Below, piece by piece: positions 17,795-36,462 of a stretch of DNA of 53,765 bases. Source of the DNA: an uncultured Alphaproteobacteria bacterium (GTDB lineage Bacteria > Pseudomonadota > Alphaproteobacteria > Parvibaculales > Parvibaculaceae); the NCBI GenBank assembly GCA_903889655.1, contig CAISYL010000208.1:1-53765 (forward strand). Direction: 5' to 3'. The notes beneath the pieces are model-generated. The model worked only from the letters and a program-made list of their open reading frames with translations. It was not told the origin of the DNA and made no database searches. A program made the translations under genes and the position numbers. Numbering within the stretch: position 1 is the stretch's first letter; each line of letters begins with the position of its first letter.

Positions 17795-17825
17795 AGGCGA
17801 ACGACGAACCAAGGGGAGACGACGC

Positions 17826-18608
17826 ATGATCCTGAAGGGCAAGACCGTCATCATCACCGGCATCGGACCCGGCATGGGGCGCAAGATGGCGGCGGAGGCC
17901 GCGAAGGAGGGCGCCAACGTCGTCATGGTTTCCCGCTCCGACTATGTGATGAAGGACGTCGTCACGGAAATCGAGGCGGCCGGGGGCACATGCATCGCGA
18001 TCCAGGCCGACGTCTCGAAGCCCGAAGATTGCCAGCGCGTCGCGGCTGAGGCCGTCGCGAAATTCGGCCGCATCGACGGGCTGGTCAACTCCGCCTACTA
18101 CCACCCGCCGATGATCCCGATCCTTGAAAACGATTCCGAGGACATCCGCCAGGCTTACGAAGTGATCGTCATCGGTGCGCTCAACATGGTCCGCGCCGTG
18201 CTGCCGAGCATGAAGGACGCGGGCGGCGGCTCGATCGTCAACATCGGCACCATGGCGGGCCGCAAACCCATGACCGGCGAAGGCGGCTATGCAGCGGCGA
18301 AGATGGCGCTCGCCGCCGTCACGCGCCAGCTCGCCCACGAACTCGGGCAGTACAACATCCGCGTCAACATCACCCTGATGGGCTGGCTGATGGGCCAGGC
18401 TGTCGATTTCTATTACCAATGGAAAGCGACCTCGACCGGCCGGACCAAGGAAGAGGTGGTCGCGGAAGCGATTTCGCATGTGCCGCTCGGCCGCATTCCG
18501 CCCGATGGCGACTGCGGCAAGGCGGCGCTGATGCTGCTTTCCGACTACGCGAGCGAAATCACCGGCGCGTCGATCGACGTGAACGGTGGCGAATACATGT
18601 CGGCCTGA
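17826..18608 (+). CDS. Short-chain dehydrogenase/reductase (SDR)
   Basis: 260 residues with the classical SDR cofactor motif TGIGPGMG near the N-terminus, the NSAYYHPP region after the fourth strand, and the active-site Tyr-x3-Lys in GGYAAAKMAL. The catalytic serine position thirteen residues before the tyrosine is threonine (NIGTMAG), a mild departure. The C-terminus ASIDVNGGEYMSA is typical. It oxidises or reduces an alcohol/ketone with NAD(P). It is third in the operon with DUF1214 and sulfotransferase genes; GGGGAG lies upstream of the ATG. The substrate is unknown. Confidence 0.85.
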   Translation: MILKGKTVIITGIGPGMGRKMAAEAAKEGANVVMVSRSDYVMKDVVTEIEAAGGTCIAIQADVSKPEDCQRVAAEAVAKFGRIDGLVNSAYYHPPMIPILENDSEDIRQAYEVIVIGALNMVRAVLPSMKDAGGGSIVNIGTMAGRKPMTGEGGYAAAKMALAAVTRQLAHELGQYNIRVNITLMGWLMGQAVDFYYQWKATSTGRTKEEVVAEAISHVPLGRIPPDGDCGKAALMLLSDYASEITGASIDVNGGEYMSA

Positions 18609-18628
18609 AAAACACGAGGGAGATCATC

Positions 18629-19120
18629 ATGGCGCTGCGTCTGGAAGACATGGAGCTCTGCAAGCAGCTCAAATACCGCTACTGCAAGGCGATCGACACC
18701 TGCAACATGCCGCTTCTGAAGAGCCTGCTCACGGAGGACGCGGCGGTCGATTACAATGGCGGCATCTACCGCTTCAAGGAAGAAGGCCGCGACAATGTGC
18801 TGGCCGCCATCGAGCGCTCCTTCTCGCCGCAGCTCGTCTCGTCGCATACGGTGCATCACCCGATCATCACCGTGCATGACGACGATACGGCCGACGGCGA
18901 GTGGACGCTGACCGACTGGACCATGAGCCTCGACTACGGAAACATGGTCGTCGAGGGCACGGCCTTCTACGTCGACAAATACGTCAAGCAGAACGGCAAA
19001 TGGCTGATCCGCCGCGCCAGCTACACGCGTCTCTATGAACGCGTCTATCAGGCGCAGGACGCGAACCTGACGGCGCATTTCCTCGGCGGACGGCGGACCG
19101 ATCCGGATGTGGCGGCATAG
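18629..19120 (+). CDS. NTF2-like (SnoaL-type) protein
   Basis: 163 residues with the cone-shaped NTF2 fold pattern: an N-terminal helix pair (ELCKQLKYRYCKAIDTCNMPLLKSLLTEDAAVDYNGG), then strands ending in GEWTLTDWTMSLDYGNMVVEGTAFYVDKYVKQNGKWLIRRASYTRLYE, given here only in outline. The family includes ketosteroid isomerases, dehydratases and polyketide cyclases. The ATG at 18629 follows GAGGGAG and the gene is 20 bases downstream of the SDR. It ends directly against the allophanate hydrolase stop codon on the other strand. Confidence 0.8.
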   Translation: MALRLEDMELCKQLKYRYCKAIDTCNMPLLKSLLTEDAAVDYNGGIYRFKEEGRDNVLAAIERSFSPQLVSSHTVHHPIITVHDDDTADGEWTLTDWTMSLDYGNMVVEGTAFYVDKYVKQNGKWLIRRASYTRLYERVYQAQDANLTAHFLGGRRTDPDVAA

Positions 19121-20914
19121 CTACCCCGCCTTCACCTTGTCGCGGTCGAGGTAACGGCGCCAGCCGCCATATGATGTGATGTCCTCGGCGCCTGCGAGGC
19201 CGGCGGCTTCGCAGAGAAAGCCCTTCACCTTGCGGCCATTGGCAAGATCGACCGTGCCGATGACGAGGGGCTGCGGCACCCCGGCGAGGAAACTTCCGAC
19301 CTGCGCGCGCGGCAACCGCCAGACTTCGAGCTCGATCGCGGCGCCCTTGTCGGACTTGACGAGCCCCGGACGGAAGGGCGGCCCGCCCGCCAGCGCGTAG
19401 AACTGATAACAGGCCGCCGTCTTGGTCCGCTCGACGAACATGCCCCCGCGCGAGGTCAGCTCGGGGTTGAGCGGCAAGCCGGTCATATGCGCGCCGACGA
19501 CTGCGATTTCGAGAAAGCCTTCATCGGCTTCCGCTTCACCGAGAGACGGCGCACCCGGTGCAAGATCGAGCGCCGCGTGAAAGTGCGCGCCGATTTCGAT
19601 GAGCCGTGCTTCGGAAAAGGCGGGCGCCGCAAGCGTGATGCCGAAGGGAAGCCCCGTCTTGCCGATGCCCGCGGGAATCGCAAGACCGGCCATGTCGAGC
19701 AGGTTCATGAAATTCGTGTAGGTGCCGAGACGCGAATTGAGCTTGATGGGCTCCGCCTCGATCTCGCTGACTTTGTAGGTGGTCGGCGCCGTCGGAACGA
19801 CGACGATGTCGAGACCGGAAAAAAGCGTCAGCACCTTGCGCTGCAGCGCCTGCAGCTTGTGCATCGCCTCGAAGACCTCGACCGCATTGCGCGTGCGCCC
19901 GCCGAGAATGATCTTCGCGACCGTCGGATCGCACTCGGCTTCATGCGCCTCGATGAAGGCGCCGACGGCCGCCGTGCGCTCCGCGACCCACGGACCTTCG
20001 TAGAGAAGCGCCGCCGCGTCGCGGAAAGGTGAGAAGTCGATGCGCCGCGCACGGCCGCCGATCTGTTCGAGCCTCTCGACCGCCTCGTTGAAAAGCCGTT
20101 CGGATTCTCCATCGCCGAAGAAGGAAAGATCGCCCGGCTTCGGCACGGCGAAGGTGAAGGCGCCGCCCGGCACCACGGGCGCATCCGGAAGCCGCGCCCG
20201 CGCATAGGGATCCTCGGCATCGAAGACCGCCGCCTGCCTGAAAATCTCCGCCGTCTCCTCCGCCGTCAGCGCGAAGATCGACACGCAATCGAGCGAGCGG
20301 CAGGCCGGCACGACCCCGCGCGCCGAGAGAAGCCCGCGCGAAGGCTTCAGGCCGGCGATATTGTTGAACGCCGCCGGTACGCGTCCGGACCCCGCCGTAT
20401 CCGTACCGAGCGAGAAGCTGACGAGCCCAGCCGCCACGGCTACCGCCGAGCCGGAACTCGACCCACCGGAGATGTAGTCCGCATTGAAGACCGAACGCGG
20501 CGCGCCATGCGGCGAGCGCGTGCCGACGAGACCCGTCGCGAACTGATCGAGATTGGTCTTGCCGATCAGGACCGCGCCCGCGTCGAGCAACCGCTGCACG
20601 ACAGGCGCATTGTCCTTCGGCTGATAGGCAAAGGCTGGACAGGCGGCGCTCGTCGGGAAACCGGCGCAGTCGATATTGTCCTTCACCGCAAAGGGCACAC
20701 CGAAGAGCGGCAGCTTCGCGCGCTCGGCGACCGGCATCGCATCGAGTGCGCGAGCCCGCGCGAGAACCGCCTCGGCCGGCGCCTTTGTGACCCAGACTGC
20801 CGGATCGCCATAGGCATCGGTGCGCTTCAGCGCCTCCATCGCAACATCCTCCGCGCGCACGCCGCGCGCATAGGCAGCCTTCAGCGAAGGAAGGGAAAAA
20901 CAGAAGCCTTTCAT
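19121..20914 (-). CDS. atzF: Allophanate hydrolase
   Basis: 597 residues. The amidase-signature domain (~1-440) has the catalytic Lys78 (AVKDNID), cis-Ser152 (SGGSSSGSAV) and nucleophile Ser176 (GTDTAGSGRVP). The C-terminal ~150 residues form the extra domain that distinguishes allophanate hydrolase from plain amidases (AVVGAHMTGLPLNPELTSRGG onward). It hydrolyses allophanate to ammonia and CO2-level products in the cytoplasm. Its ATG overlaps the carboxylase stop (ATGA), so the two are coupled. In this locus it is the last step of guanidine breakdown. Convergent with the NTF2-like gene, with no gap. Confidence 0.93.
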   Translation of the reverse strand: MKGFCFSLPSLKAAYARGVRAEDVAMEALKRTDAYGDPAVWVTKAPAEAVLARARALDAMPVAERAKLPLFGVPFAVKDNIDCAGFPTSAACPAFAYQPKDNAPVVQRLLDAGAVLIGKTNLDQFATGLVGTRSPHGAPRSVFNADYISGGSSSGSAVAVAAGLVSFSLGTDTAGSGRVPAAFNNIAGLKPSRGLLSARGVVPACRSLDCVSIFALTAEETAEIFRQAAVFDAEDPYARARLPDAPVVPGGAFTFAVPKPGDLSFFGDGESERLFNEAVERLEQIGGRARRIDFSPFRDAAALLYEGPWVAERTAAVGAFIEAHEAECDPTVAKIILGGRTRNAVEVFEAMHKLQALQRKVLTLFSGLDIVVVPTAPTTYKVSEIEAEPIKLNSRLGTYTNFMNLLDMAGLAIPAGIGKTGLPFGITLAAPAFSEARLIEIGAHFHAALDLAPGAPSLGEAEADEGFLEIAVVGAHMTGLPLNPELTSRGGMFVERTKTAACYQFYALAGGPPFRPGLVKSDKGAAIELEVWRLPRAQVGSFLAGVPQPLVIGTVDLANGRKVKGFLCEAAGLAGAEDITSYGGWRRYLDRDKVKAG

Positions 20915-23900
20915 GCCGTCGCCTCCAGCGGCAGCAGCGTCACGAGCGCCTGCCCCGCCTGAACCATGGTTCCCGGTGCGCAATGCACCTCATGTACGCG
21001 GCCGCGCATCGGCGACCGCATTTCGATTTCCATCTTCATGGATTCGAGCGTGACGAGGGACTGATCCTGCGCGACCTCTTCGCCAGCCTCGACGCTGATC
21101 GACCAGACATTGCCCGGCACACTCGCCTCGACGAGCCGCGCGCCGGGCGGCAGATCGCCGATCGACTGCACTGGCGGCGCATCGGGCTCGGCCGCCTGCA
21201 TCGAGAGACCCTTTTCCTCCCAGCGCTGCCGCTCCTCTTCGAAGGCGCGGCGTTGCACGGTACGGAAATCCCCGATCTCGCCCGCATTGGCATCGAGGAA
21301 GGCCAGATAATCGCTGAGGCGGAAACTCGAATTCTCGACTTCGACTTCATAACGCCCATGCGGAAAAGCGGCGCGGATGTCGAGCAATTCATCCGCCGAA
21401 ACCGGAAAGAAGCGGATACGGTCGAAGAAGCGCAGCAGCCAGGGCGAACCCGCCTCGAAATTCTTTGTCTGCCGCCATGTATTCCACATCTGCAGCGTGC
21501 GGCCGAAAAGCTGGTAGCCCCCCGGCCCTTCCATGCCATAGACGCACATATAGGCGCCGCCGATGCCGACCGCGTTTTCCGGCGTCCAGGTGCGCGCCGG
21601 ATTGTACTTCGTCGTGACGAGCCGGTGGCGCGGATCGAGCGGCGTTGCGACCGGCGCGCCGAGATAGACGTCGCCGAGACCCAGCACCATGTAGTCCGCA
21701 TCGAAGATGATCCGCCGCACCTCGTCGATGCTGTCGAGGCCGTTGATGCGGCGAATGAACTCGATATTGGACGGGCACCACGGCGCATCCGGATTGACCA
21801 GCGTCTGATACTTGCGCACCGCCTCCTGCGCCGCTGCGTCGTCCCACGACAGCGGCAGACGCACGATGCGGCTCGGAACTTCTATATCCTTCGTCGCCGG
21901 CAATTGCCGTTCGACTTCTTCCACCGTCCTGAGCAGCCGCTTCAGCGGCAGGCGATCGGGATCGAAATGGATCTGCAGCGAGCGAATGCCCGGCGTCATC
22001 TCGATAATGCCGGCTACGCGCTTCGAAATCAGCGCCGTCATCATCGCATGGGCACGGAAGCGCAGCGCGAAGTCGAGCACCATTGGCCCATATTCGATGA
22101 GCAGATAGTCGTCGCCCGCGCGGCGATAGGTGACGGCGACGTCGAGATCGTCGATACGACCGAGCACCGCGTCGCTCGGGATCGCGGGCGTCGGCACACG
22201 CGAGCCGTGATGCGGACGACGTAACGTCGAGAGCCAATGCTCCTCGCCCTTGCGCAGGGCTTCCGCCTCTTCGTCGCTCACGCGGCGGAAGCGCACCTTG
22301 TCGCCCGGCTTCAACTGTCCGATCTTCCAGAGATCGGCCTTCGCGATCGTTGCCGGACAAACGAAGCCGCCCAGGCTCGGCCCGTCGAGCCCGAGAATGA
22401 TCGGCATGTCGCCGGTAAAATCGATCGTGCCGACCGCATAGGCATTGTCGTGAATGTTCGAGGGATGCAGTCCCGCCTCGCCGCCATCCTTGCGCGCCCA
22501 TTTCGGCTTCGGTCCGATGAGACGAATGCCCGTGCGCGCCGAATTGTAGTGAACCTCATAGGTGGCGCTGAACAGCGTCTCGATGTCCTCGTCGGCGAAA
22601 TAATCAGGCGCGCCATGCGGCCCGTAAAGCGCCGCAAGTTCCCACTCATGCACCAGCGGCGGCCGGTTGAGTTCCGGCAGCGCCTCCTTATGCACCGGTT
22701 CCTTCGCGCCGGAGCGATTGACGCGCAGCACATCGCCCGTCTTGAGCGCCCCCGTCGCATGGCCGCCGAAACGGCCGAGCGTGAAGGTCGAACAGGAGCC
22801 TAGATATTCGGGCGCGTCGAAGCCGTTGCGGATCGCGAGATAAGCGCGTTGGCCCGCACCTTCGATGGCGCCGAGTTCGAGCGTCTGTCCGCGCTTCACC
22901 TCGAAGGGCTGCCAGTAGGGAACCGCCTCGCCGCTCACCGTGGCCGTCATCTTCGCGCCGCCGAGGACCACGAAAGCGTCGGTGCGGAAATGAAGCGTCG
23001 GCCCGGTCAGCGTCATTTCGAGCGCCGGCGTCCCCGGCGCATTGCCGACGAGACGGTTCGCAAGCTGGAAGGAAAGCGAATCCATCGGCCCCGACGGCGG
23101 CACGCCGACATTCCAGTAACCGACGCGGCCCGGATAATCCTGGATCGTCGATTGCGCGCCCGGCGTCACGACGTCGATGGTCGCGGGCTGGAAGGCGAAA
23201 TGGGCGAGCGAGGAGGTGCGCATCGCACCGTCGAGAAAAGTCCAGGCGCCGGCTAGCTGACGCAGATAATCGAGATTGGTTTCGATACCGTAGACCGCGC
23301 TCTGGTTGAGCGCCGACGCAAGCTTCGCCACCGCCTCGGCGCGGGTCGCACCCTTGACGATGATTTTCGCCAGCATCGGGTCGTAGAACGGCGTCACTTC
23401 CGTGCCGGTCGCGATCCATCCATCGACGCGCACGCCGTCGGGGAAACTCACCTGCGTCAGAAGGCCGGAGGATGGCTGGAAATTCCGTGCCGGATCTTCG
23501 GCGTAGAGGCGCACTTCGATCGCATGCCCCCGAGGTTCGCGACGGTAGCTCGCGAGAGGGCCGAGATCGCCGGCGGCCTGCGCCACCATCATCTCGACGA
23601 GATCTAGGCCGGTCACCTCCTCCGTCACCGGATGCTCGACCTGAAGCCGCGTATTGACTTCGAGGAAGTAGAACTTCTCCTCCGCCGCGTCGTAGATGAA
23701 TTCGACCGTGCCGGCGGATTCGTAAGAAACCGTTTCGCCGAGGCGAATGGCCGCTTCGTGCAGCGCCTGGCGTACGTCCTCGGCAAGATTGGGCGCCGGC
23801 GTCTCCTCGATCACCTTCTGGTTGCGGCGCTGTGCCGAGCAGTCGCGCTCGCCGAGCGCGATCACCTTGCCCTTGCCGTCGCCGAAAATCTGCACCTCGA

Positions 23901-24522
23901 TATGCCGCGCCTCGGCGACGAATTTCTCGAGGAACATGCCGCCATCCTTGAAATTCGCAAGGCTGAGGCGCTGCACCGTTTCGAAGAGACGCGGCAGTTC
24001 GGCGGCCGACCGGCAGAGCTGCAAGCCGATGCCGCCACCGCCCGCGGTGCTTTTGAGCATCACGGGATAGCCGATGCGTTCGCCGTGAGCGAGCGCGTCG
24101 TCGAGATCGGTGACGAGAGGTGAACCCGGCAGCAGCGGTACGCCGCTCTTCTCGGCGAGATCGCGGGCCGTATGCTTCAGCGCGAAGGCGAGCATGTGTT
24201 CCGGCCGTGGCCCGATAAAGGCGATGCCCCGATCGTTGAGCGCCTGTGCGAAGCCCGGATTCTCGCTGAGAAAACCGTAGCCCGGATGCACGGCCTCGGC
24301 GCCCGTCGAGATCGCGGCGGCGATGATCGCATCGGAATCGAGATAGCTCTGCGCGACCACCGCCGGCCCGACGCAGACCGCCTCGTCGGCGAGATCGACA
24401 TGCGGCGCGAAGCGGTCGGCCTCCGAATAGACGGCGACCGAGGCAATACCCATGCGCCGGAGCGTGCGAATGACGCGGCAGGCGATTTCGCCGCGATTCG
24501 CAACCAGGACTTTCTTGAACAT
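20911..24522 (-). CDS. Biotin-dependent urea/guanidine carboxylase (probably guanidine carboxylase)
   Basis: 1203 residues. Domains in order: biotin carboxylase (1 to ~450, with VLVANRGEIACRVIRT and the ATP-grasp region KSTAGGGGIG), carboxyltransferase AHS2/CT_A_B (~460-760), AHS1/CT_C_D (~800-1030), and a C-terminal biotinyl domain with the biotin lysine in ESMKMEIEM. GGGAGGAAACA precedes the ATG at 24522. By family it would be named urea carboxylase. The upstream guanidine-I riboswitch and the DUF1989 pair instead indicate guanidine as substrate, giving carboxyguanidine with ATP and bicarbonate. This follows published work on ykkC-linked carboxylases; substrate preference here is inference. 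Confidence 0.9.
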   Translation of the reverse strand: MFKKVLVANRGEIACRVIRTLRRMGIASVAVYSEADRFAPHVDLADEAVCVGPAVVAQSYLDSDAIIAAAISTGAEAVHPGYGFLSENPGFAQALNDRGIAFIGPRPEHMLAFALKHTARDLAEKSGVPLLPGSPLVTDLDDALAHGERIGYPVMLKSTAGGGGIGLQLCRSAAELPRLFETVQRLSLANFKDGGMFLEKFVAEARHIEVQIFGDGKGKVIALGERDCSAQRRNQKVIEETPAPNLAEDVRQALHEAAIRLGETVSYESAGTVEFIYDAAEEKFYFLEVNTRLQVEHPVTEEVTGLDLVEMMVAQAAGDLGPLASYRREPRGHAIEVRLYAEDPARNFQPSSGLLTQVSFPDGVRVDGWIATGTEVTPFYDPMLAKIIVKGATRAEAVAKLASALNQSAVYGIETNLDYLRQLAGAWTFLDGAMRTSSLAHFAFQPATIDVVTPGAQSTIQDYPGRVGYWNVGVPPSGPMDSLSFQLANRLVGNAPGTPALEMTLTGPTLHFRTDAFVVLGGAKMTATVSGEAVPYWQPFEVKRGQTLELGAIEGAGQRAYLAIRNGFDAPEYLGSCSTFTLGRFGGHATGALKTGDVLRVNRSGAKEPVHKEALPELNRPPLVHEWELAALYGPHGAPDYFADEDIETLFSATYEVHYNSARTGIRLIGPKPKWARKDGGEAGLHPSNIHDNAYAVGTIDFTGDMPIILGLDGPSLGGFVCPATIAKADLWKIGQLKPGDKVRFRRVSDEEAEALRKGEEHWLSTLRRPHHGSRVPTPAIPSDAVLGRIDDLDVAVTYRRAGDDYLLIEYGPMVLDFALRFRAHAMMTALISKRVAGIIEMTPGIRSLQIHFDPDRLPLKRLLRTVEEVERQLPATKDIEVPSRIVRLPLSWDDAAAQEAVRKYQTLVNPDAPWCPSNIEFIRRINGLDSIDEVRRIIFDADYMVLGLGDVYLGAPVATPLDPRHRLVTTKYNPARTWTPENAVGIGGAYMCVYGMEGPGGYQLFGRTLQMWNTWRQTKNFEAGSPWLLRFFDRIRFFPVSADELLDIRAAFPHGRYEVEVENSSFRLSDYLAFLDANAGEIGDFRTVQRRAFEEERQRWEEKGLSMQAAEPDAPPVQSIGDLPPGARLVEASVPGNVWSISVEAGEEVAQDQSLVTLESMKMEIEMRSPMRGRVHEVHCAPGTMVQAGQALVTLLPLEATA

Positions 24523-24539
24523 TGTTTCCTCCCGGAACG

Positions 24540-25166
24540 TCAGCCGTTCCAGATGAGCGTGCGAATGGGCGTGGGATTGAAGTCGTTGCAGGGATTGTTG
24601 ACCTGCGGGCAGTTCGAGATGACGCACAGCACGTCCATCTCCGCACGCAACTCGACATAGTCACCCGGCTTCGACACGCCATCGACGATGGCGAGCGTCC
24701 CGTCCGGCTCGATCGGCACGTTCATGAAGAAGTTGATATTGCTCACGAGATCGCGCTTGGTGAGCCCGTGCTTCGCGAGCTCCAACACGAAATTGTCGCG
24801 GCAGCTATGCATGTATTTCGTGTCGTGACCGAAGCGCACGGTATTGGCTTCTGCGCTGCAGGCGCCCGCCGACGTATCGTGTGCGCCGCAGGTATCCGCG
24901 ACGACGGTGAGCATCACATTGCCTTCGGTCGAGAGGAGCTTCGTACCCGTGGTGATGTAGGGCGCGCCCTGCGCGCGGATCGTGTCCTGCGCGCTATAGC
25001 GCTCCAGCGGGTCGGCCGCGTTGTAGAAGAGCGTGTCGACAGCCTGACAGCCTTCCAGATCGATGATGCGCAGAAGCTGCCCCTTCTTCACGATATGAGA
25101 CCAGGGCTTGTTGGCGGGAACGATGGCGTCGTAAGCGACGGCGTTGGGTTCGCGATTGATGCTCAT
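24540..25166 (-). CDS. DUF1989 protein, second subunit of a carboxyguanidine deiminase pair
   Basis: 208 residues, cytoplasmic. It shares with its upstream neighbour the RDNFVLELAKHGL and SNCPQVNNPCND motifs of the DUF1989 (urea carboxylase-associated) family. In characterised loci the two paralogues form a heteromeric deiminase (CgdAB) that turns carboxyguanidine into allophanate and ammonia. It sits five bases after its paralogue and 17 bases before the carboxylase, exactly between the enzymes whose intermediates it links. I do not assign which of the two is CgdA or CgdB. Confidence 0.85.
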   Translation of the reverse strand: MSINREPNAVAYDAIVPANKPWSHIVKKGQLLRIIDLEGCQAVDTLFYNAADPLERYSAQDTIRAQGAPYITTGTKLLSTEGNVMLTVVADTCGAHDTSAGACSAEANTVRFGHDTKYMHSCRDNFVLELAKHGLTKRDLVSNINFFMNVPIEPDGTLAIVDGVSKPGDYVELRAEMDVLCVISNCPQVNNPCNDFNPTPIRTLIWNG

Positions 25167-25171
25167 GGGCC

Positions 25172-25984
25172 TTACTCCGAGATCGCATCTGTGTTGTCGA
25201 AACCGCGGATCGCCTCTTCAGAGGCGGTGCGGCAGAAATCGTCGGCGGCGGGTGCCGGCGATTTCCAGAACACGAGTTCGATTGGTTCGGGCGCATAGGC
25301 GCCGGGCGCGAGCGGATGCGGGCAGTTGGACAGGAAGACGAGAATATCCATCTCGGCGCGGAGATCGACATAGTCGCCCGCGGCCGGCTGCCCGTTCTGC
25401 CAGACGAGCTTGCCGGCGGCATCGACACCGACGGGCGCAAAGAGCGTCAGGCATGGCGGAATATCGGCCTTGGAAAGTCCGTGCTTCGCCGCCAGCAGGA
25501 TGAAATTGTCCCGCGTGTTGCGAAGCGTCGGGTCGGCATATTTCTCGGCATTGGTAACGGCGGTCGAGCCGCCCGCGATCGCATCGTGCCGGCCGAACGT
25601 GTCGTCGGTGATGGAAGCGAGCACGCGGCCCATGTCGGAATAAAGAAGCTTGCCCTTGTGCAAGCTCGCGCTCCACTGAAGCTTGACCGTGTCGCCGGCA
25701 TTGAAGCGCTCGGTCGGATCGGCGGCACGATAGAGCAACACCGACACGCCCTGCGTCGACGAAGCGTTGACGATCCGGAGCGTGGTGCCGCGTTTGACGA
25801 GACCCGACCAGCCCCAGCCGGCGGGCAGCGTCTCGCGCTTCAGCACGAGATCGCCTGAGAGTGTCCCGGGATTGCCCTTCGCCTCGCTGAAATCGCGACG
25901 CCGCGCCTTGCTGCGCGCGAAGAGTTCCTTGTAGCGCGCGCGCTGGGCCGCATAGCGGTCCGGTGTCTGAGATGTATCGGCCAT
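25172..25984 (-). CDS. DUF1989 protein, first subunit of a carboxyguanidine deiminase pair
   Basis: 270 residues, longer than its paralogue by an N-terminal basic helix (RYAAQRARYKELFARSKARR). The DUF1989 core has RDNFILLAAKHGLSKADI and FLSNCPHPLAPG, matching positions in the neighbour. AGGAGA lies just before the ATG at 25984. Expected role: with the second DUF1989 protein, deimination of carboxyguanidine to allophanate. Older annotation would call it urea carboxylase-associated protein. It lies 104 bases downstream of the ABC ATPase gene on the same strand. Confidence 0.85.
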   Translation of the reverse strand: MADTSQTPDRYAAQRARYKELFARSKARRRDFSEAKGNPGTLSGDLVLKRETLPAGWGWSGLVKRGTTLRIVNASSTQGVSVLLYRAADPTERFNAGDTVKLQWSASLHKGKLLYSDMGRVLASITDDTFGRHDAIAGGSTAVTNAEKYADPTLRNTRDNFILLAAKHGLSKADIPPCLTLFAPVGVDAAGKLVWQNGQPAAGDYVDLRAEMDILVFLSNCPHPLAPGAYAPEPIELVFWKSPAPAADDFCRTASEEAIRGFDNTDAISE

Positions 25985-26088
25985 CTCGTTCTCCTGCTTC
26001 CGACGGCGTCCTCGACCGAGGTCGCCGAAAAGCCTGGCCGTCCAGGCACGAACTCAACTCCGCCGGGTCGTCCCGACGGATACGAAAC

Positions 26089-26880
26089 TCATCTGACGAT
26101 GGCGATCTTCGGCTTCTGCTCCACGGCTTCGGTGGAAGCCACCGGTTCCGGCGGCGGAATTTTCCGCATCACCGGCAGATCGAAGGTGATGGTCGCGCCA
26201 TAGGCTTCGAGTTCCTCCGGCCGGTTCTTGCGCCGGTCGAAGGCGATGACGCGCGTGCCGAGCTTGAAGGCTTCGGATAGATCATGCGTCACCATGAAGA
26301 TCGTCATGCCCGTCTCGCGCCAGAGCGTGAGAAGGATTTCATGGACCTCCGCGCGGATGCCTGGATCGAGCGCGCCGAAAGGCTCATCGAGCAGCAGAAG
26401 CTTCGGCCGCTTGACCAGCGCCTGCGCGATCGCCAGACGCTGCTGCATGCCGCCCGAAAGCTCGGCCGGATACTTGTTCTCCGCCGCTTCGAGCCCGACC
26501 GATTTCAGCATCGCCCGCGAGGCGTCGCGTGCCGCGCGCCGGCGCTTGCCGAAGAGATGGCCGAGAAAAGGGCTCTGCCCGAGTTCGATGCCGAGCATCA
26601 CGTTCTGTAGCGCCGTCAGATGCGGAAAGACCGAATATTTCTGGAAGACGACGCCGCGGTCGGGCGACGGCTCCGCCTGCAGCGCAACGCCGTCGACGAG
26701 GATGCGGCCCTGCGTCGGCGCTTCGTCGCCGAGCAGCATCCTCAGGAATGTCGACTTGCCGCAGCCCGAAGGCCCGACCAGCGAGATGAAGGATTGCGGC
26801 GCCGTCTCGAACGAGATGCGTTCGAGCACGGTCTGCCTGCCATAGGTCTTCCAGACATTTTCGACGGTGACGCGGGTCAT
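26089..26880 (-). CDS. ABC transporter ATP-binding protein (nitrate/sulfonate/taurine type)
   Basis: 263 residues with Walker A GPSGCGKST, the signature LSGGMQQR, Walker B LLLLDEPFGALD and the switch histidine in MVTHDLSEA. The C-terminal ~35 residues are an extension without recognised function. It energises uptake together with the adjacent permease (nine bases upstream) and the binding protein at 28142-29224. Given the riboswitch, the imported solute is probably guanidine or a compound releasing it. Confidence 0.92.
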   Translation of the reverse strand: MTRVTVENVWKTYGRQTVLERISFETAPQSFISLVGPSGCGKSTFLRMLLGDEAPTQGRILVDGVALQAEPSPDRGVVFQKYSVFPHLTALQNVMLGIELGQSPFLGHLFGKRRRAARDASRAMLKSVGLEAAENKYPAELSGGMQQRLAIAQALVKRPKLLLLDEPFGALDPGIRAEVHEILLTLWRETGMTIFMVTHDLSEAFKLGTRVIAFDRRKNRPEELEAYGATITFDLPVMRKIPPPEPVASTEAVEQKPKIAIVR

Positions 26881-26889
26881 GCCTTACTC

Positions 26890-27708
26890 CTACATATGGC
26901 CGCGATACATCCAGCGGAACGCAACCCGTCTCAGCGCGCGCAGCAGGAAATCGAGCGAGAAGGCCAGGAAGGTGATCCAGGCGACATAAGGAAGGATCAC
27001 ATCCATCGAGAGATAGCGTCGCATCAGGAAGATGCGGTAACCGAGACCGGATTCGGCGGCGATCGCCTCGGCTGCGATCAGATAAAGCCAGGCCGGCCCG
27101 AGCGACATGCGGACGGAATCGATGAGGCGCGGCAGCATCTGCGGCACGACGATGCGCATGGCGATCTGCCATGTCGAAGCGCCGAGCGTCTGCGCCTTGA
27201 TGATCTGCTCGTGCGGCAGTTCTTCGACCCGCTGCGCGAGATCGCGGATGATGAAGGGCACGATGCCGACCACGATCAGCACGATCTTCGCCGTTTCGCC
27301 GAGACCGAAGGTGATGAAGAGGATCGGCAGGATCGCGAGTGCCGGGATCATCGAAACGACGTTGGTGAAATTGGTGAGCGTCGCGCGGATGTAGGGAATG
27401 AGCCCCTGCAACACGCCGACGATAAAGCCAATCGCCATTGCGATGCCGACGCCGGTGCCGAGACGTTCCATGCTGACCGTCGTATCGAGCAGCAGAAGAT
27501 AGTCGCCCTCGCGCAGATCGGGCACGAAGGTCACCCGATTGATCGCCTCCATCAGCGTCGTCCAGCCCGGCAGGAGCTTGTCGTCCGGGTTCAGCGCGAG
27601 ACGCGCCTGCGAAGCAAGCGCATAGGCGAGGAAGACAAGAAAGAAGGGCAGCGCGGCCAGCAGAAGCTTCGAGAGCACATCGGGCCGCTGATTGATGAGA
27701 CGACGCAT
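26890..27708 (-). CDS. ABC transporter permease (nitrate/sulfonate/taurine type)
   Basis: 272 residues from the ATG at 27708, which is preceded eight bases upstream by GGAGGA. About six transmembrane helices are visible, with the EAA-type loop around EQIIKAQTLGASTWQIAMRI that contacts the ATPase. It is the first gene of the riboswitch-controlled operon. The frame stays open upstream to 27891, but that part is the riboswitch and its expression platform and is not protein-like. Its partner binding protein lies upstream, beyond a terminator. Confidence 0.92.
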   Translation of the reverse strand: MRRLINQRPDVLSKLLLAALPFFLVFLAYALASQARLALNPDDKLLPGWTTLMEAINRVTFVPDLREGDYLLLLDTTVSMERLGTGVGIAMAIGFIVGVLQGLIPYIRATLTNFTNVVSMIPALAILPILFITFGLGETAKIVLIVVGIVPFIIRDLAQRVEELPHEQIIKAQTLGASTWQIAMRIVVPQMLPRLIDSVRMSLGPAWLYLIAAEAIAAESGLGYRIFLMRRYLSMDVILPYVAWITFLAFSLDFLLRALRRVAFRWMYRGHM

Positions 27709-27712
27709 AAAG

Positions 27713-27794
27713 CCAGTCCTCCAGACCGTTGAGGCCGATACAACTCGGAGGATTGGCGTGACACGGCGGTGTGTAATGCCAACCCTCGCATTAC
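27713..27794 (-). promoter_or_regulatory. Riboswitch expression platform with Shine-Dalgarno-sequestering hairpin
   Basis: Seen directly on the minus strand: CCAATCCTCC (27756-27747) can pair with GGAGGACTGG (27722-27713) at nine of ten positions, hiding the permease SD GGAGGA (27722-27717). An inner GTTG/CAAC stem closes it. A competing ten-pair helix is possible between GAGGGTTGGC (27787-27778) and GCCAATCCTC (27757-27748), which would free the SD. A GTAATGC/GCATTAC hairpin (27794-27773) covers the same segment. CCGCCGTGT (27769-27761) is the exact complement of ACACGGCGG (27825-27817) inside the aptamer. The layout fits translational control, with aptamer folding deciding which helix wins. 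The helices are visible; the mechanism is inferred. Confidence 0.65.
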
Positions 27795-27799
27795 GTCCG

Positions 27800-27942
27800 T
27801 CTCCCGGGCTTTTGTCCCGCCGTGTACCCGGCCGCTGTTCACCGACCGGGTTGCGGCTCTCGGACCAGCACTTCCAGCGAAACGGTGGCAACCGAAACAG
27901 ATGCCTACCGAAACAATGGAAGCCGGAACCCTAGCCGCTGCC
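27800..27942 (-). promoter_or_regulatory. Guanidine-I riboswitch (ykkC)
   Basis: The three conserved blocks of the ykkC guanidine aptamer appear in order on the minus strand: CTAGGGTTCCG (from 27934), GGTCCGAGAG (27866-27857) and ACACGGCGGGACAAAAG (from 27825) ending in CCCGGGAGA (at 27800). Spacing is as in known members. It binds free guanidinium and turns on guanidine-handling genes. It lies about 90 bases before the permease start codon and heads the transport, DUF1989, carboxylase and allophanate hydrolase operon. The outer ends of the aptamer are approximate. Confidence 0.95.
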
Positions 27943-27954
27943 GATTCTCGAGGT

Positions 27955-27970
27955 TGCAAGGCGCGGGCCA
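27955..27970 (-). promoter_or_regulatory. Sigma-54 (RpoN) type -24/-12 promoter of the guanidine operon
   Basis: On the minus strand TGGCCCGCGCCTTGCA (27970-27955) matches the sigma-54 consensus TGGCAYG-N4-TTGCW with one mismatch. It keeps the invariant GG and GC with the required ten bases between them. Transcription would start near 27945, just before the first conserved block of the riboswitch at 27934. RpoN promoters need an enhancer-binding activator such as NtrC, so nitrogen limitation is a likely signal. Confidence 0.7.
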
Positions 27971-28032
27971 ATTCCCTTCGGGCCGATTTGCCCGTTTTGA
28001 GGGGCGGCGCCTTTACCGCTCGCCACAGGGCG

Positions 28033-28047
28033 GCTCAAATTTTGAGC
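28033..28047. promoter_or_regulatory. Perfect 15-base inverted repeat, candidate activator site
   Basis: GCTCAAA-T-TTTGAGC with seven-base arms, centred about 95 bases upstream of the expected sigma-54 transcription start. That distance is usual for enhancer-binding proteins. It does not resemble the NtrC consensus (TGCAC...GTGCA), so the activator may be another protein. Confidence 0.4.
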
Positions 28048-28081
28048 AGACGCCCAATTCGAGGGCAAATATGTAAGACGC

Positions 28082-28125
28082 CAGAAAATAAAGGCCCCGC
28101 CCTCCGGTACTCAGGAGAGCGGGGC
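28082..28125 (-). terminator. Intrinsic terminator after the substrate-binding protein gene
   Basis: On the minus strand GCCCCGCTCTCC (28125-28114) pairs over 12 positions (one G-T) with GGAGGGCGGGGC (28105-28094) around an eight-base loop, followed by CTTTATTTT. It lies 16 bases past the stop of the binding-protein gene and separates that transcript from the sigma-54/riboswitch unit. Confidence 0.88.
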
Positions 28126-28141
28126 GCAACGCACGCAACAA

Positions 28142-29224
28142 TCAGAGTTTGCCGTCGGCCGCGAGCTGCATGTAGCTCGGATCAACCCGGAGCTTCACGT
28201 TGTTCTTGTCGCCGATGATCTTGCCGCCCGGCAGTTCGATGCCGACGAAGCCCTTGTCCTTCGCCTTGTTGCCGAGGAGACCGTGGCTGAAGCTGAATTC
28301 CTGCACGTCGCCGGCAATGTCGATCATCTTCTGGCTCTTCAGCAGTTCGACGGCCTTCGCCGGCTCGTAGTAGAAGCCGGTCGTCTTCACCTGGCCATCG
28401 AAGTCGGCAAGGTTCGTACCCGAAGCGGCCGCCATGAAGGTGCGCGCGTCGATGCCTTCCTTGTCGTTCTTCTGCATGATGCCGAGCGCTTCGTACCATG
28501 CGCCGGCAAGCGCCTTGCCGAATTCCGGATGCGCTTTCAGCGTCGCGGTGTTGGCGACCACGATGTCCTGCACCTCGCCCGGAAGCTGCGAGGAATTGAA
28601 GACCTCCGTGACGTCCGGCATCTTGCGGATCTGGCTGGTCGCCGGGTTCCAGGCGACCAGCGCCTTCACGTCCGGCGTACCGAAGGCGGCGACGAAATCG
28701 GCGTCGGCGATGTTCGCCGTCGTGATGTCGCTTTCCTTGATGCCAGCCTGCTTGAGCGCAAGCCAGAGCATGTAGTGCGAAACGGAATACTGAACCAGAT
28801 AGACCTTCTGGCCCTTGATGTCGGCGAGCGTCTTGCCCTTGCCCTTGAGGAAGATCGCGTCGTTGCCGTTGGTATAGTCGCCGAGCAGGAAGAGCGTCGA
28901 GTCGACGCCACCGGCCGACGGAATGGTCAGCGTGTCGATCGTCGTGTCGGCGACGGCGTCGAACTGGCCCGCCGTATACTGATTGATCGATTCGACGTAA
29001 TCGTTGATCTGCACGAGCTCGATCTTGATGCCGTATTTGTCGGCCCACTTCTTGAGAATGCCGGTCTTTTCCGCATAGGCCCAGGGCATGTAGCCCGTAT
29101 AGATCGACCAGGCGAGCTTGAAGGTCTTCGGCGCTGCGGCTGCGGGCTGAACGGCGGAGACGGCCATCAGGGCGGCGGCGAGAAACGCGAATACGGTTTT
29201 TCTGAATTGCGGCAGCCTAAACAT
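28142..29224 (-). CDS. ABC transporter substrate-binding protein (NrtA/SsuA-like)
   Basis: 360 residues from the ATG at 29224 (AAGGACAG upstream), with a Sec signal peptide of ~31 residues ending PAAAA. The mature chain is a periplasmic type II binding protein of the nitrate/sulfonate/taurine superfamily (FKLAWSIYTGYMPWAYAEKTG, FDAVADTTIDTLTIP, KALVAWNPATSQI). It is the presumed periplasmic receptor for the permease and ATPase at 26089-27708. A terminator at 28082-28125 places it in a different transcript from them, with the oxygenase. Substrate inferred to be guanidine or a guanidino compound. Confidence 0.9.
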   Translation of the reverse strand: MFRLPQFRKTVFAFLAAALMAVSAVQPAAAAPKTFKLAWSIYTGYMPWAYAEKTGILKKWADKYGIKIELVQINDYVESINQYTAGQFDAVADTTIDTLTIPSAGGVDSTLFLLGDYTNGNDAIFLKGKGKTLADIKGQKVYLVQYSVSHYMLWLALKQAGIKESDITTANIADADFVAAFGTPDVKALVAWNPATSQIRKMPDVTEVFNSSQLPGEVQDIVVANTATLKAHPEFGKALAGAWYEALGIMQKNDKEGIDARTFMAAASGTNLADFDGQVKTTGFYYEPAKAVELLKSQKMIDIAGDVQEFSFSHGLLGNKAKDKGFVGIELPGGKIIGDKNNVKLRVDPSYMQLAADGKL

Positions 29225-29307
29225 GATCTGTCCTTTCAATGTCGCGAAGTTGATCCGCGATCCCGTATGGTTGAGGCATTTCCACTGCTGTCGTTTCTGT
29301 ATGTCCA

Positions 29308-30390
29308 TCAGGCGCGCTCCTTGCGCCCGAAGAAGGCTTCGCCGGTCGTTTCCGATTCCGGTATGGCAAGAATTCCCGCCTTCTCGAGTTTCCTCAGATA
29401 GGCGAAGGTGCGCATGGTCTGGGCAAGCAGATGATCGCCCGCGACATAGCTCGGATAGATGCGCGCGGCCCCCGGCTCGACGAATTGCGGCAGCGGCTCC
29501 ACCACCGTGTCGTAATCGACGGCGCAGAAAAGCGGGAAGGAATAGCGCTCGTAATTGATCTTGCGCACGCGATGCGCCGTCGCGATGAAGCGGCCGTTGG
29601 TCATGGCTTCGAGCATGTCGCCGATATTGATGACGAAGGCGCCGGGCACGGGTGGCGCGTCGATCCACTGGCCGTCGGCATTGACGACTTCGAGGCCGGG
29701 CGCGGTTACATGCAGGATCGTGAAACACTCGTAATCGGTATGCGGGCTGATGCCGAAATTGCTATCGCTCCCGCCGATGGCCGTCGGATCGAAGGTCTCG
29801 TTTTCCGGGTAGTGCACGAGGCGGAGCTGCGATGGCGGCCGCGTCAGATAGCCGTCGAAATAATGTTCGTCGAGCCCCAGCGCCAGCGCGAAGCCGCGGA
29901 AAAGGGCGCGGCCCAGCGACGTCGCCGCCTCGTAATAGCCATAGACGTCTTCCTTGAAGCCCTCGATTTCGGTCGGCCACTGGTTCGGCCCGAGAAGCCT
30001 GTAACCCCTGATGTGATCCGGATCGTCTTCGGCGAGATCGATCGAGAGATCGTAGGCTTCCTTCTTGTCGACGGTCGGCACGTCGCCCGAATAGAAATTC
30101 TCCTCGCCCGTCGGCACGTAACCGCGATGCGCGCGCGAATTGCCGATGTAATATTTCTTCTTCACCTCATCCGGCAGCGCGAAGAAAGCCGCGGCCTTTG
30201 CCTGCAGCTTCTCGATCATCTCGGGCGCAATGCCGTGGCCGGTGACATAGAGGAAACCGACTTCGCTCGCGGCCTTCTCCATTTCGCGCGCGACAGCTTT
30301 TTTCGCCTCGAGATCGTCGCCGAGCAGCGCCGAGATGTCGACCAGCGGAATGCGGTCGAACGCCGTACCTTTTGCCATCTTCGTCTCCAT
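29308..30390 (-). CDS. 2-oxoglutarate/Fe(II) oxygenase (isopenicillin N synthase-like)
   Basis: 360 residues. The N-terminal DIOX_N part starts at RIPLVDISALLG. The iron ligands are His217 and Asp219 (SPHTDYE) and His273 (TAHRV); Arg282-x-Ser284 (RYSFPLF) should bind 2-oxoglutarate. The start ATG at 30390 overlaps the preceding stop (TGATG), though the ATG four codons later has a better SD. Some members of this superfamily, such as ethylene-forming enzyme and homoarginine 6-hydroxylase, release guanidine from arginine-like substrates. Its place next to a guanidine operon makes a similar role attractive, but this is inference; it could oxidise another nitrogen compound. Confidence 0.85.
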   Translation of the reverse strand: METKMAKGTAFDRIPLVDISALLGDDLEAKKAVAREMEKAASEVGFLYVTGHGIAPEMIEKLQAKAAAFFALPDEVKKKYYIGNSRAHRGYVPTGEENFYSGDVPTVDKKEAYDLSIDLAEDDPDHIRGYRLLGPNQWPTEIEGFKEDVYGYYEAATSLGRALFRGFALALGLDEHYFDGYLTRPPSQLRLVHYPENETFDPTAIGGSDSNFGISPHTDYECFTILHVTAPGLEVVNADGQWIDAPPVPGAFVINIGDMLEAMTNGRFIATAHRVRKINYERYSFPLFCAVDYDTVVEPLPQFVEPGAARIYPSYVAGDHLLAQTMRTFAYLRKLEKAGILAIPESETTGEAFFGRKERA

Positions 30391-31211
30391 CAAAGAGCAC
30401 TCCTGATGTCTTCCGCGACCGGAAAAGCGTCGAGCGAACCTTGCGCATCGAGAACCTGCCAATGCCGGGCGAGCGGCTTTCCTTCCGGACTGATGTCGGA
30501 GAGAACCATTGTGCCGGAGCGGCGACCGGCCCAGACCGGATCGAGGCGCCGCGTCTCGCGGAAAGGAAGGCTCGACCGCTGGATGATCCAGTCCGCGCCC
30601 GAGACGACGCCCTGCGAGATCTCGCAGTCGAGAAGGTCCTGCGCCTCGGAAAGGCTTGCCGCGCTCGCCACGCAGTCCTGAAGATGGAGCCCCGCCGGAA
30701 CGGCGGCACTCCGTGCGCGCGCATACATGAAAAGGGAGCCGAGCCGCATGAGATAGGCGCGCGCGCCGGTCGCGGAATCGTCGAGCCGCAAGGCGCAGAC
30801 CGGATCGAGGCCGACGGGCTCGCGATGCCAATGCTCGATATAGGGAATATCCTTTCCCTCCTCGACCATCTTGTCCGGCTCCATCCACAGACGACCCTGA
30901 TCGGAATAGACGGCCTGCGGCTGGAAGTCGATTTCGCGCCGCCACTCGAAGAAGCCGTCGGCATAATGGAGTTCGCCCGCAAAACCTTCCTGCGAGGCGA
31001 GCCAGCCGAGGTCGGCGGGCTTCAGTGCGCGCAGATGTTCAACGCCCCGATAGTCGGGCCGTCCGGTCGGCTGACGCAGATCGAGATAGAAACTCGGTCC
31101 CTGCATCCAGTTGACGAAGGTCTCGCGATCGCTCCGCCCGTCGGGCCAGTCGATGAGCGAGCGGCTCCACAGCCCTCTCAGCCCCTCGATCGTCGGTTCC
31201 ATGGTCGTCAT
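30390..31211 (-). CDS. Unrecognised conserved-looking protein upstream of the oxygenase
   Basis: 273 residues from the ATG at 31211; in-frame alternatives exist at 31244 and 31202. I do not recognise a family. The chain is rich in Trp, Asp and Arg, with no signal peptide or membrane segment. It contains segments such as SFYLDLRQPTGRPDYRGVE, FEWRREIDFQPQ and DIPYIEHWHREP. The pattern of short strands suggests a beta-barrel-like fold. Its stop overlaps the oxygenase start, so the two proteins are made together and probably work together. It lies between a candidate LysR site (31290-31308) and the oxygenase. Confidence 0.7.
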   Translation of the reverse strand: MTTMEPTIEGLRGLWSRSLIDWPDGRSDRETFVNWMQGPSFYLDLRQPTGRPDYRGVEHLRALKPADLGWLASQEGFAGELHYADGFFEWRREIDFQPQAVYSDQGRLWMEPDKMVEEGKDIPYIEHWHREPVGLDPVCALRLDDSATGARAYLMRLGSLFMYARARSAAVPAGLHLQDCVASAASLSEAQDLLDCEISQGVVSGADWIIQRSSLPFRETRRLDPVWAGRRSGTMVLSDISPEGKPLARHWQVLDAQGSLDAFPVAEDIRSAL

Positions 31212-31289
31212 GCGCTGATCCCGATACTGAACTTCGGACAGCATGCGTCGTGCACGGGTATAGGCGAAGACGGGAAATTTCGATGCCGC

Positions 31290-31308
31290 CCATAGACGGG
31301 GCCTATGG
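31290..31308. promoter_or_regulatory. Candidate LysR-type operator
   Basis: CCATAG at 31290-31295 and CTATGG at 31303-31308 form a perfect dyad seven bases apart. It includes T-N11-A and ATA-N9-TAT, the latter being the pattern bound by the nitrogen regulator Nac. It lies between the LysR gene and the unknown/oxygenase/binding-protein unit, so that LysR protein is the natural candidate to bind it. Confidence 0.5.
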
Positions 31309-31327
31309 GGGCCGGTGGACGAAATGT

Positions 31328-32278
31328 TCAAGATGAGGGCCGCGTCCTGAGCCGCGTCAGGATTTCGTCGAGGAAGAGTTCGGTCGGCGTGTCGCGCGCA
31401 TCCTGTTCGCGCGTGATGAGATAGACGTGATAGCTCGGCAGCAGATCGCCGGGGAGCAGCGGCCAGAGATTATGCGCGCGGTCGATTTCCTCCGCGACAC
31501 AGGTCGGCAGAAAGCCGATGCCGACGCCGAGTTCGATGAGCCGCTTCACCTCGTGGAGATTTTCCGCAAAGCCGGCCGCATGCCGGCCGAGACCGTAGCG
31601 GCGACGGAAGCGTTCGAGTTCTTCCGGCTCGTCCTCGCCGGTCATGACGAAAGGCTCGTCGCAAAGCATCGCGGGCTGGCCGATGGTCCGGCCGAAAAGC
31701 GGATGGGAGCGCGCGCAATAGAGCTGCTGCACTTCCTTCATCAGCGGTTCGTAGCGAAGCCCTTCGCCCGGCGCGCTGTCGCAGGCAATGCCGACTTCCG
31801 CCTCGCCAAGTTTCAACGCCTTGACGACGCCGCGCCAGGGCACAACGTCGAGGCGGATTTCGACACCCGGATGAAGCTCATGAAAGGCGGCGATCGCCGC
31901 GTCGAATTCCGGCGAGACGATGCTCGACATGATCTTGATGTTGATGACGCCTTCGACGAGGTTCGCGGCCTTCGCGACCTCATGCGGCGCGACGCGCACG
32001 GCGCCCATCATCGCCTCGCAGAGCGGCACCAGCGCGCGGCCGGCGGCGGTGAGTTCGATACCCTGGCTGGTGCGTCGGCAAAGCTCGACGCCGAGGTGTT
32101 CCTCGAGCCGCTTCAGCCCGGCGCTGATCGTCGGCTGCTGCTTGTTGAGATGGCGCGCAGCCGCGCTGATCCCCCTTGAATTGACGATTTCAAGAAAGAG
32201 GCCAAAGAGGTTCCAGTCGACGGTGCGGACGAAATGACGCTCGTCCTGGGAGATGAGTTTCAGGTTCGGCATGGCCAT
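31328..32278 (-). CDS. LysR family transcriptional regulator
   Basis: 316 residues; the ATG two codons later (32272) has better spacing to GAGG and may be the true start. The DNA-binding domain is at residues ~20-80 (NLFGLFLEIVNSRGISAAARHLNKQQPTISAGLKRLEEHLG, shown in outline). The C-terminal ~220 residues form the LysR effector domain. It is encoded upstream of, and in the same direction as, the unknown/oxygenase/binding-protein genes, with a T-N11-A dyad between. It likely activates that unit in response to a small nitrogen compound. Confidence 0.9.
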   Translation of the reverse strand: MAMPNLKLISQDERHFVRTVDWNLFGLFLEIVNSRGISAAARHLNKQQPTISAGLKRLEEHLGVELCRRTSQGIELTAAGRALVPLCEAMMGAVRVAPHEVAKAANLVEGVINIKIMSSIVSPEFDAAIAAFHELHPGVEIRLDVVPWRGVVKALKLGEAEVGIACDSAPGEGLRYEPLMKEVQQLYCARSHPLFGRTIGQPAMLCDEPFVMTGEDEPEELERFRRRYGLGRHAAGFAENLHEVKRLIELGVGIGFLPTCVAEEIDRAHNLWPLLPGDLLPSYHVYLITREQDARDTPTELFLDEILTRLRTRPSS

Positions 32279-32356
32279 GCGCCTCGGTTCCGGCCCCCTT
32301 TTTGGGTCTTGAACCGATTTCCGGAGCAAGTTCCGGACCAGACGATGGCCGCGCCG

Positions 32357-33100: not shown

Positions 33101-33122
33101 AGAATCAGTTTCCGCCGGATTG

Positions 33123-34888: not shown

Positions 34889-34915
34889 CGCGTTACACCC
34901 GATCGGAACATGACA

Positions 34916-36334: not shown

Positions 36335-36462
36335 CGCAACTCCTCTTTGACATGGCGCATCGATGCGCCACTTCCCGCTATAGGAGAGCAAGAGCGGTGC
36401 CAGCGCCAGAGCCCGAAAATACGGGTCCATTCTGCGGTTTTGAGAAGGTTATGTCTAAATTT

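Follow-up and report, generated by a model that had tools for sequence, protein, structure and literature searches.

Guanidine-I and guanidine-II riboswitches at a guanidine carboxylation operon of Parvibaculaceae, with a putative methylguanidine module

Why is one metabolite read twice, by unrelated RNAs? The question is raised by the 53,765-nt contig CAISYL010000208.1 (assembly GCA_903889655.1) of a Parvibaculaceae bacterium (hereafter "the window"), which was analysed together with the 4.36 Mb genome to which it belongs. There, a guanidine-I (ykkC) riboswitch heads a guanidine carboxylation/assimilation operon of an already known kind, and a riboswitch of a second class, guanidine-II, stands inside the operon just before the carboxyguanidine deiminase gene cgdA. 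Two further questions are whether this second class widens the ligand range of the operon, i.e. to methylguanidine, and whether guanidine aptamers of different class can cooperate within one leader, an arrangement unseen in a 2022 survey. From sequence comparisons we consider it probable that the locus as a whole serves guanidine assimilation under guanidine-I and guanidine-II control, with an upstream module that would produce guanidine from methylguanidine. New here are the two-class control with the second class before cgdA, the mixed-class tandem of some relatives, a likely translational platform for guanidine-I and the linked, putative methylguanidine module.

Gene set of the operon and its likely substrate

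The guanidine-I aptamer (27799..27945, minus strand as all features of the locus given below) matches Rfam RF00442 in cmscan with 81.3 bits for a gathering cut-off of 63. No second match turned up in the 4.36 Mb genome among the 150 of 167 first-look candidates that were scored. The initial annotation of this DNA had placed a ykkC aptamer at the head of the operon and had asked for a covariance-model search, which thus bears it out. The genes follow in one direction: a permease of an ATP-binding cassette (ABC) transporter (26890..27708; PF00528), presumed to import guanidine, and its ATPase (26089..26880; PF00005); cgdA (25172..25984; UAAP1, TIGR03425 275 bits) and cgdB (24540..25166; UAAP2, TIGR03424 345 bits), both DUF1989 proteins (PF09347) and predicted subunits of carboxyguanidine deiminase; gca (20911..24522), a predicted guanidine carboxylase of 1203 aa annotated as urea carboxylase (TIGR02712, 1868 bits for a cut-off of 1304; biotin motif ESMKME); and an AtzF-type allophanate hydrolase of 597 aa (19121..20914; TIGR02713 778 bits, PF01425, PF21986). 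The two DUF1989 genes adjoin gca, an arrangement taken here as the mark of CgdAB, which the literature assigns by clades of a tree. The DUF1989 pair, the biotin carboxylase and the allophanate hydrolase had all been named before, in one direction, and the TIGR and Pfam matches agree. ABC transport genes had also been placed after the aptamer; this holds for the permease and the ATPase, but the binding-protein gene (29224-28142) lies upstream of the aptamer, outside 19121-27942.

The second riboswitch lies at the ATPase/cgdA boundary (26032..26080). It is composed of two hairpins with ACGR loops (ACGA and ACGG) and scores 34.9 bits with Rfam RF01068 (matched span 26079-26033), above the gathering value of 32; no other match was found in the genome, 150 of 900 candidates being scored. 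In an Rfam scan of positions 17500-32500 the two guanidine riboswitches alone pass, eight further matches all being below their cut-offs. The initial annotation is supported but incomplete, having overlooked this element as well as the upstream MgdL/MgdH-like module (pair 31211-29308).

By their database labels these genes would form a urea operon, in which a urea carboxylase and an allophanate hydrolase degrade urea brought in by a urea ABC transporter: TIGR02712, TIGR03424/TIGR03425 and TIGR03427, the last matched by the binding protein, all carry urea names. The published mark of a guanidine carboxylase is Asp at position 1330 of the K. lactis enzyme (TIGR02712 position 701) together with Asp at K. 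lactis position 1584 (PMC11410670). In the window these residues are D701, aligned with Asn (N1330) in the solved structure from K. lactis, and D951, aligned with D1584. Homologues at the collected loci, some of them sharing a genome, have Asp at the first position in 86/86 and at the second in 82/83, with one gap. A separate full-length urease alpha gene lies elsewhere in the genome. Because both published aspartates are present and the genome has its own urease, guanidine and not urea is the likely substrate of the carboxylase. We therefore rejected the urea pathway on the specificity residue, Asp and not Asn, and on the separate urease; with two guanidine riboswitch classes and a DUF1989 pair at the locus besides, it appears extremely improbable. 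The preference of the initial annotation for guanidine is supported accordingly, and the "urea" names of these genes are misleading.

The pathway itself is already published, guanidine being converted to carboxyguanidine, then allophanate, then ammonia (PMC11410670, PMC12186494). Guanidinium would be imported by the ABC transporter and, as orthology and the diagnostic residues indicate, carboxylated by Gca; CgdAB would deiminate the product to allophanate, whose hydrolysis would yield ammonia and CO2.

The guanidine-II element and its place in the operon

Guanidine-I is present in 25 of 40 genomes of the order. All 24 guanidine-I loci of the family beside that of the window were collected (loci and genomes are designated by L and G numbers); one of them, L033, ends before cgdA, and 24 operons, the window's included, can be assessed. 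A pair of ACGR hairpins stands directly 5' of cgdA in 24/24, in strict form in 23 and in a relaxed form in L047, where P1 has an internal loop. Order-1 Markov sequences (20 replicates) yield 0.05 strict pairs per 535 kb, to be compared with 33 at the loci collected for this count, which includes several same-genome duplicates and pairs at other genes. The Rfam gathering value is reached by only four of the 24 elements, the others falling short probably owing to the many long linkers. A mixed alignment of the elements misplaced some P2 hairpins on P1, and no model was built from it.

The hairpins before cgdA could be decayed relics, or RNA-processing hairpins, leaving guanidine-I as the sole regulator of the operon. 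The score of the window's element, barely over the cut-off, and those of most relatives, under it, would fit such a decay. The lack of a clear expression platform fits as well: no partner for the Shine-Dalgarno (SD) sequence was found for the window's guanidine-II element (84 of 100 shuffles are as good), and in the same test on 23 loci at most 10 of 100 shuffles do as well in L067 (1), L108 (5), L029 (9) and L025 (10) alone. In addition, several guanidine-I operons of the same class lack the pair. Nevertheless both loops, their G-C closing pairs and the position are kept in 24/24 family operons although the linkers of the 23 strict pairs vary from 10 to 33 nt, and other bacterial classes have a hairpin pair at another boundary. 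Decay or processing is thus quite unlikely, and we retain guanidine-II as a second regulator, which, placed between the transporter and enzyme genes, would gate the latter.

The place of the pair was compared in sampled sets of 385 genomes of the class and 398 of the phylum. Searches beyond the 40 genomes used stricter filters, genes at the compared loci were called by tblastn with the window proteins, and the three lowest-scoring class matches (G370, G197, G120) and loci already collected were left out. For the same class outside the family, 21 loci have cgdA, cgdB and gca: the pair is before cgdA in 15 and before gca in none. For the other classes (27 such loci) it is between cgdB and gca in 20 and before cgdA in none. 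The association of class and place has a Fisher p of 3e-10, which overstates independence since the loci are related. The published place is likewise before gca (PMC12186494, PMC12508155). No pair was found in 6/21 and 7/27 of these loci respectively; four of the thirteen (L076, L091, L101 and L124) retain a single hairpin whose stem has 6 bp or more. An extra pair within the cgdA gene of L126 was regarded as a chance occurrence.

A further 18 named loci comprise three that repeat family genomes and 15 others. Among these 15 the pair occurs in L008 and L010 alone, before cgdA in both. L010 (Rhodospirillales) fits the place seen in the same class; L008 (4849-5771) is from Solimonas terrae, a gammaproteobacterium, and is an exception, possibly a transferred alpha-type operon. 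A clean split between classes is weakened by this locus, and the class rule for the place of guanidine-II is strong, not universal. Six more of the 15 (L012, L014, L015, L018, L019 and L023) have the guanidine-I core without a hairpin pair.

Guanidine-II also occurs in the family at exporter genes. In two genomes an element above the cut-off lies directly 5' of genes for efflux proteins of the PACE type (chlorhexidine efflux transporter, PF05232; L050:3001-3486 and L051:3001-3502). Guanidine-II-type elements lie 5' of SMR (Gdx-like) exporter genes in L049, L052, L053, L054 and L056, the SMR assignment being by PF00893 for the L053 protein and by reading of the sequence alone for the others.

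The guanidine-I leader and the tandem leaders of three relatives

The SD region of the permease gene (CTGGAGGACTGGCT, 27711..27724; ATG at 27708) is preceded by a predicted anti-SD segment (27745..27758) and, further upstream, by a predicted anti-anti-SD (CGAGGGTTGGCA, 27777..27788), the alternative partner of the anti-SD. The two competing duplexes are almost even, at -19.6 kcal/mol for SD:anti-SD and -18.9 kcal/mol for anti-SD:anti-anti-SD, and for each 0/200 shuffles are as good. Statistics were drawn from 21 non-tandem family leaders with 200 mononucleotide shuffles each: at most 10/200 shuffles are as good in 14/21 leaders for the first pairing and in 17/21 for the second. Relative to the main group, L030, L036 and L041 have two SD:anti-SD pairs altered on both sides, in duplexes read by eye. 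In folds of the full-length leaders, 19/21 have a closed SD (0.06 or less), the values of L029 and L031 being void since the SD site was misplaced. The conservation of the anti-SD/SD pairing in the leader suggests that guanidine-I acts on translation in Parvibaculaceae. The pairing of the off state is supported by these comparisons, and from it we infer that switching probably proceeds as follows: with no ligand the anti-SD would occupy the SD; with guanidine on the aptamer the anti-anti-SD would capture the anti-SD and free the SD, turning on the unit that begins with the permease gene.

Some results fit this switch poorly. Removing the aptamer from the folds clearly opens the SD of the window (0.61), does so to a smaller degree for L047 (0.48), L034 (0.36) and L043 (0.20), and leaves it shut in most relatives. 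A predicted anti-aptamer segment (27761..27771), with a similar one visible by eye in most leaders, could pair with ACACGGCGG of the aptamer (27825-27817); this pairing is matched by at least 17/200 shuffles in each of the 21 leaders and stays a tentative idea. Finally, the guanidine-I class is described as usually transcriptional (PMC12186494), so that the riboswitch might work here by transcription termination, the SD:anti-SD pairing being incidental. GC-rich leaders do pair easily, and more than 10/200 shuffles match the SD:anti-SD duplex in 7/21 leaders. A consensus scan of the gene strand from the aptamer to the permease found no terminator, however, and the pairing beats shuffles in 14/21 leaders and is kept through the two double changes. 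We give termination a real but lesser chance and prefer translational control.

In three relatives the two classes meet in one leader. A guanidine-II-type pair starts 73, 63 and 78 nt past the guanidine-I aptamer in L025, L037 and L042 respectively, and cgdA follows; no transporter gene was found at these loci. Misassembly is unlikely because L037 and L025 lie on contigs of 584 kb and 354 kb (14 kb for L042). The second element, with a longer linker, is below the Rfam gathering value of 32 in L025 (21.9 bits, E 0.024) and L037 (22.1 bits, E 0.02). We therefore term both guanidine-II-type and not members of the class; the conserved loops and position make the case for them. The tandem leaders keep the anti-SD, and an anti-SD reaching across guanidine-II to the cgdA start is no better than shuffles (111, 205 and 133 of 500) and was dropped. 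Two open reading frames (ORFs) behind gca in L025 have no Pfam match and are probably spurious.

The tandem was seen in these three loci alone. In the window two genes separate the aptamers, and no such pair was seen at nine other loci where guanidine-I is 5' of the cgd genes with no transporter match between them (1.7 kb apart in L121). With two aptamers per leader the three relatives resemble the tandem riboswitches surveyed in 2022 (PMC9481103), a survey that reports none of the four guanidine classes in such an arrangement. A literature search by titles and abstracts, with subscription papers outside it, found no description of a mixed-class guanidine tandem.

A putative methylguanidine module and the range of the system

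Upstream of the guanidine-I unit, and separated from it by a terminator-like hairpin (28094..28125; 12 bp stem with a T tail), lie four genes: a LysR-type regulator (31328..32329; PF03466, PF00126), an mgdL-like gene (30390..31211) whose 273-aa product has a D44-L-R46 motif and no Pfam or NCBIfam match, an mgdH-like 2-oxoglutarate/Fe(II) dioxygenase gene (29308..30390; 360 aa; PF14226, PF03171) and the substrate-binding protein (28142..29224; TIGR03427 470 bits). An H-x-D...H triad defines the 2-oxoglutarate/Fe(II) dioxygenase superfamily. It is present here as H217, D219 and H273, in 24/24 aligned sequences, and with the adjacent MgdL-like gene it marks the dioxygenase as MgdH-type by sequence. 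D44 and R46 of the MgdL-like protein are found in 25/25 aligned sequences, the window's included, the alignment covering part of the matches. In a module so far described in halophilic bacteria, methylguanidine is hydroxylated by the dioxygenase MgdH, and the lyase MgdL depends on D49 and R51 (PMC12508155); in L156 the motif is at D49/R51 counted from the Met of its protein, as in the published MgdL. At L115/L156 gca is followed by the genes for the dioxygenase and the MgdL-like protein, as published for V. boliviensis. The full order, given for genome G459 (MgdL-like motif at D49/R51), is binding protein, permease, ATPase, cgdA, cgdB, guanidine-II pair, gca, dioxygenase, MgdL-like. In L085 and L086, from another class, a guanidine-II-type pair is directly 5' of the dioxygenase gene.

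MgdL-like genes go with guanidine-I. They were found in 14/398 sampled phylum genomes, the window's included, 12 of which have guanidine-I against 43/398 overall (Fisher p 4e-11); in 10/14 the gene is within 10 kb of the riboswitch. A dioxygenase match adjoins the MgdL-like gene in 9/14 of the collected phylum loci (L143-L156). Within the order, an MgdL-like match is present in 25/40 genomes (short in one, G012), and in the collected loci (L131-L142, window included) the MgdL-like gene has a dioxygenase beside it in 12/12, LysR in 9/12 and a binding protein in 9/12. A paralogue of the binding protein adjoins the mgd-like genes in many relatives. The guanidine-I units of the window and L044 have no binding-protein gene of their own, L047 having one on either side, and because of this lack the upstream binding protein of the window may serve the shared permease.

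The homology, the synteny and the D-x-R motif make a module for methylguanidine demethylation probable, in which imported methylguanidine would be converted to guanidine and formaldehyde, feeding the guanidine pathway. Several observations count against this assignment. The MgdL-like proteins of the window and L156 share just 34% identity, along a stretch of about 125 residues, and a single-sequence fold of the former is useless for judging the beta-barrel expected of an MgdL (mean predicted local distance difference test score 34.8). The Rfam scan found no riboswitch before the mgd-like genes of the window. In L156, no allophanate hydrolase was found in the 1.5 kb past mgdL, where the published operon has one. 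Among the 14 phylum genomes with an MgdL-like gene two have no guanidine-I match, and no dioxygenase was found beside this gene at five of the 14 collected loci (L143, L147-L150). The dioxygenase might instead make guanidine from arginine or homoarginine, in the manner of ethylene-forming enzymes or plant hydroxylases, with no demethylation of methylguanidine. Enzymes of the superfamily do release guanidine from arginine (PMC12508155), and the best match among solved structures is an ethylene/succinate-forming enzyme (205 bits). Against such a role stand the MgdL-like and binding-protein genes paired with it and its 52% identity to the dioxygenase that adjoins gca, and follows it, in L115; we hold it unlikely and keep the demethylation module.

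Guanidine-I also heads a different operon in L097, L094, L102 and L112. As annotated for L097 only, it has genes for a binding protein, a fatty-acid-desaturase-like oxygenase, a short-chain dehydrogenase, an unknown protein, a creatininase-family protein, an MgdL-like protein, a permease and an ATPase. It possibly degrades another guanidino compound.

Around the whole locus, sulfotransferase, short-chain dehydrogenase and SnoaL-like genes (window 16622-19120, plus strand) run towards the operon and meet its last gene end to end. Upstream, a row on the minus strand (32357-36430) encodes a proteasome-like protein, a transglutaminase and an Alpha-E protein, then a 504-aa ORF (34916-36430).

Among the closest known systems is the guanidine carboxylase operon described from Vreelandella boliviensis (with gca, cgdA/B, atzF, mgdH and mgdL; PMC12508155), which shares with the window the pathway genes, guanidine-I at the head, an internal guanidine-II and an MgdH/MgdL-type pair nearby. 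There, guanidine-II is between cgdB and gca, in contrast to its place before cgdA in the window, and the mgd genes are between gca and atzF, whereas the mgd-like genes of the window are grouped upstream with those for LysR and a binding protein in a unit of their own. Operons of Raoultella, Erwinia and Klebsiella (PMC12186494) also have guanidine-I then guanidine-II, an importer and the carboxylase pathway; in these guanidine-I governs the importer and the deiminase, and guanidine-II the carboxylase and the allophanate hydrolase, while in the window guanidine-II precedes the deiminase genes.

The guanidine-II RNA of Vreelandella is published as binding methylguanidine. If that of the window does so too, translation of the enzymes could answer to both compounds and guanidine-I to guanidine alone. 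We tentatively propose, without holding it the most probable outcome, a serial two-class system: guanidine-I, sensing guanidine only, would open the first ribosome-binding site, and guanidine-II, sensing guanidine or methylguanidine, that of the enzyme genes; loss of the transporter would have fused both into a two-input gate on cgdA; and the system would be coupled to a methylguanidine-to-guanidine module outside halophiles. For annotation, the locus points to a correction of the "urea" names; for the biology of these bacteria, it points to the use of methylguanidine in a group of Alphaproteobacteria.

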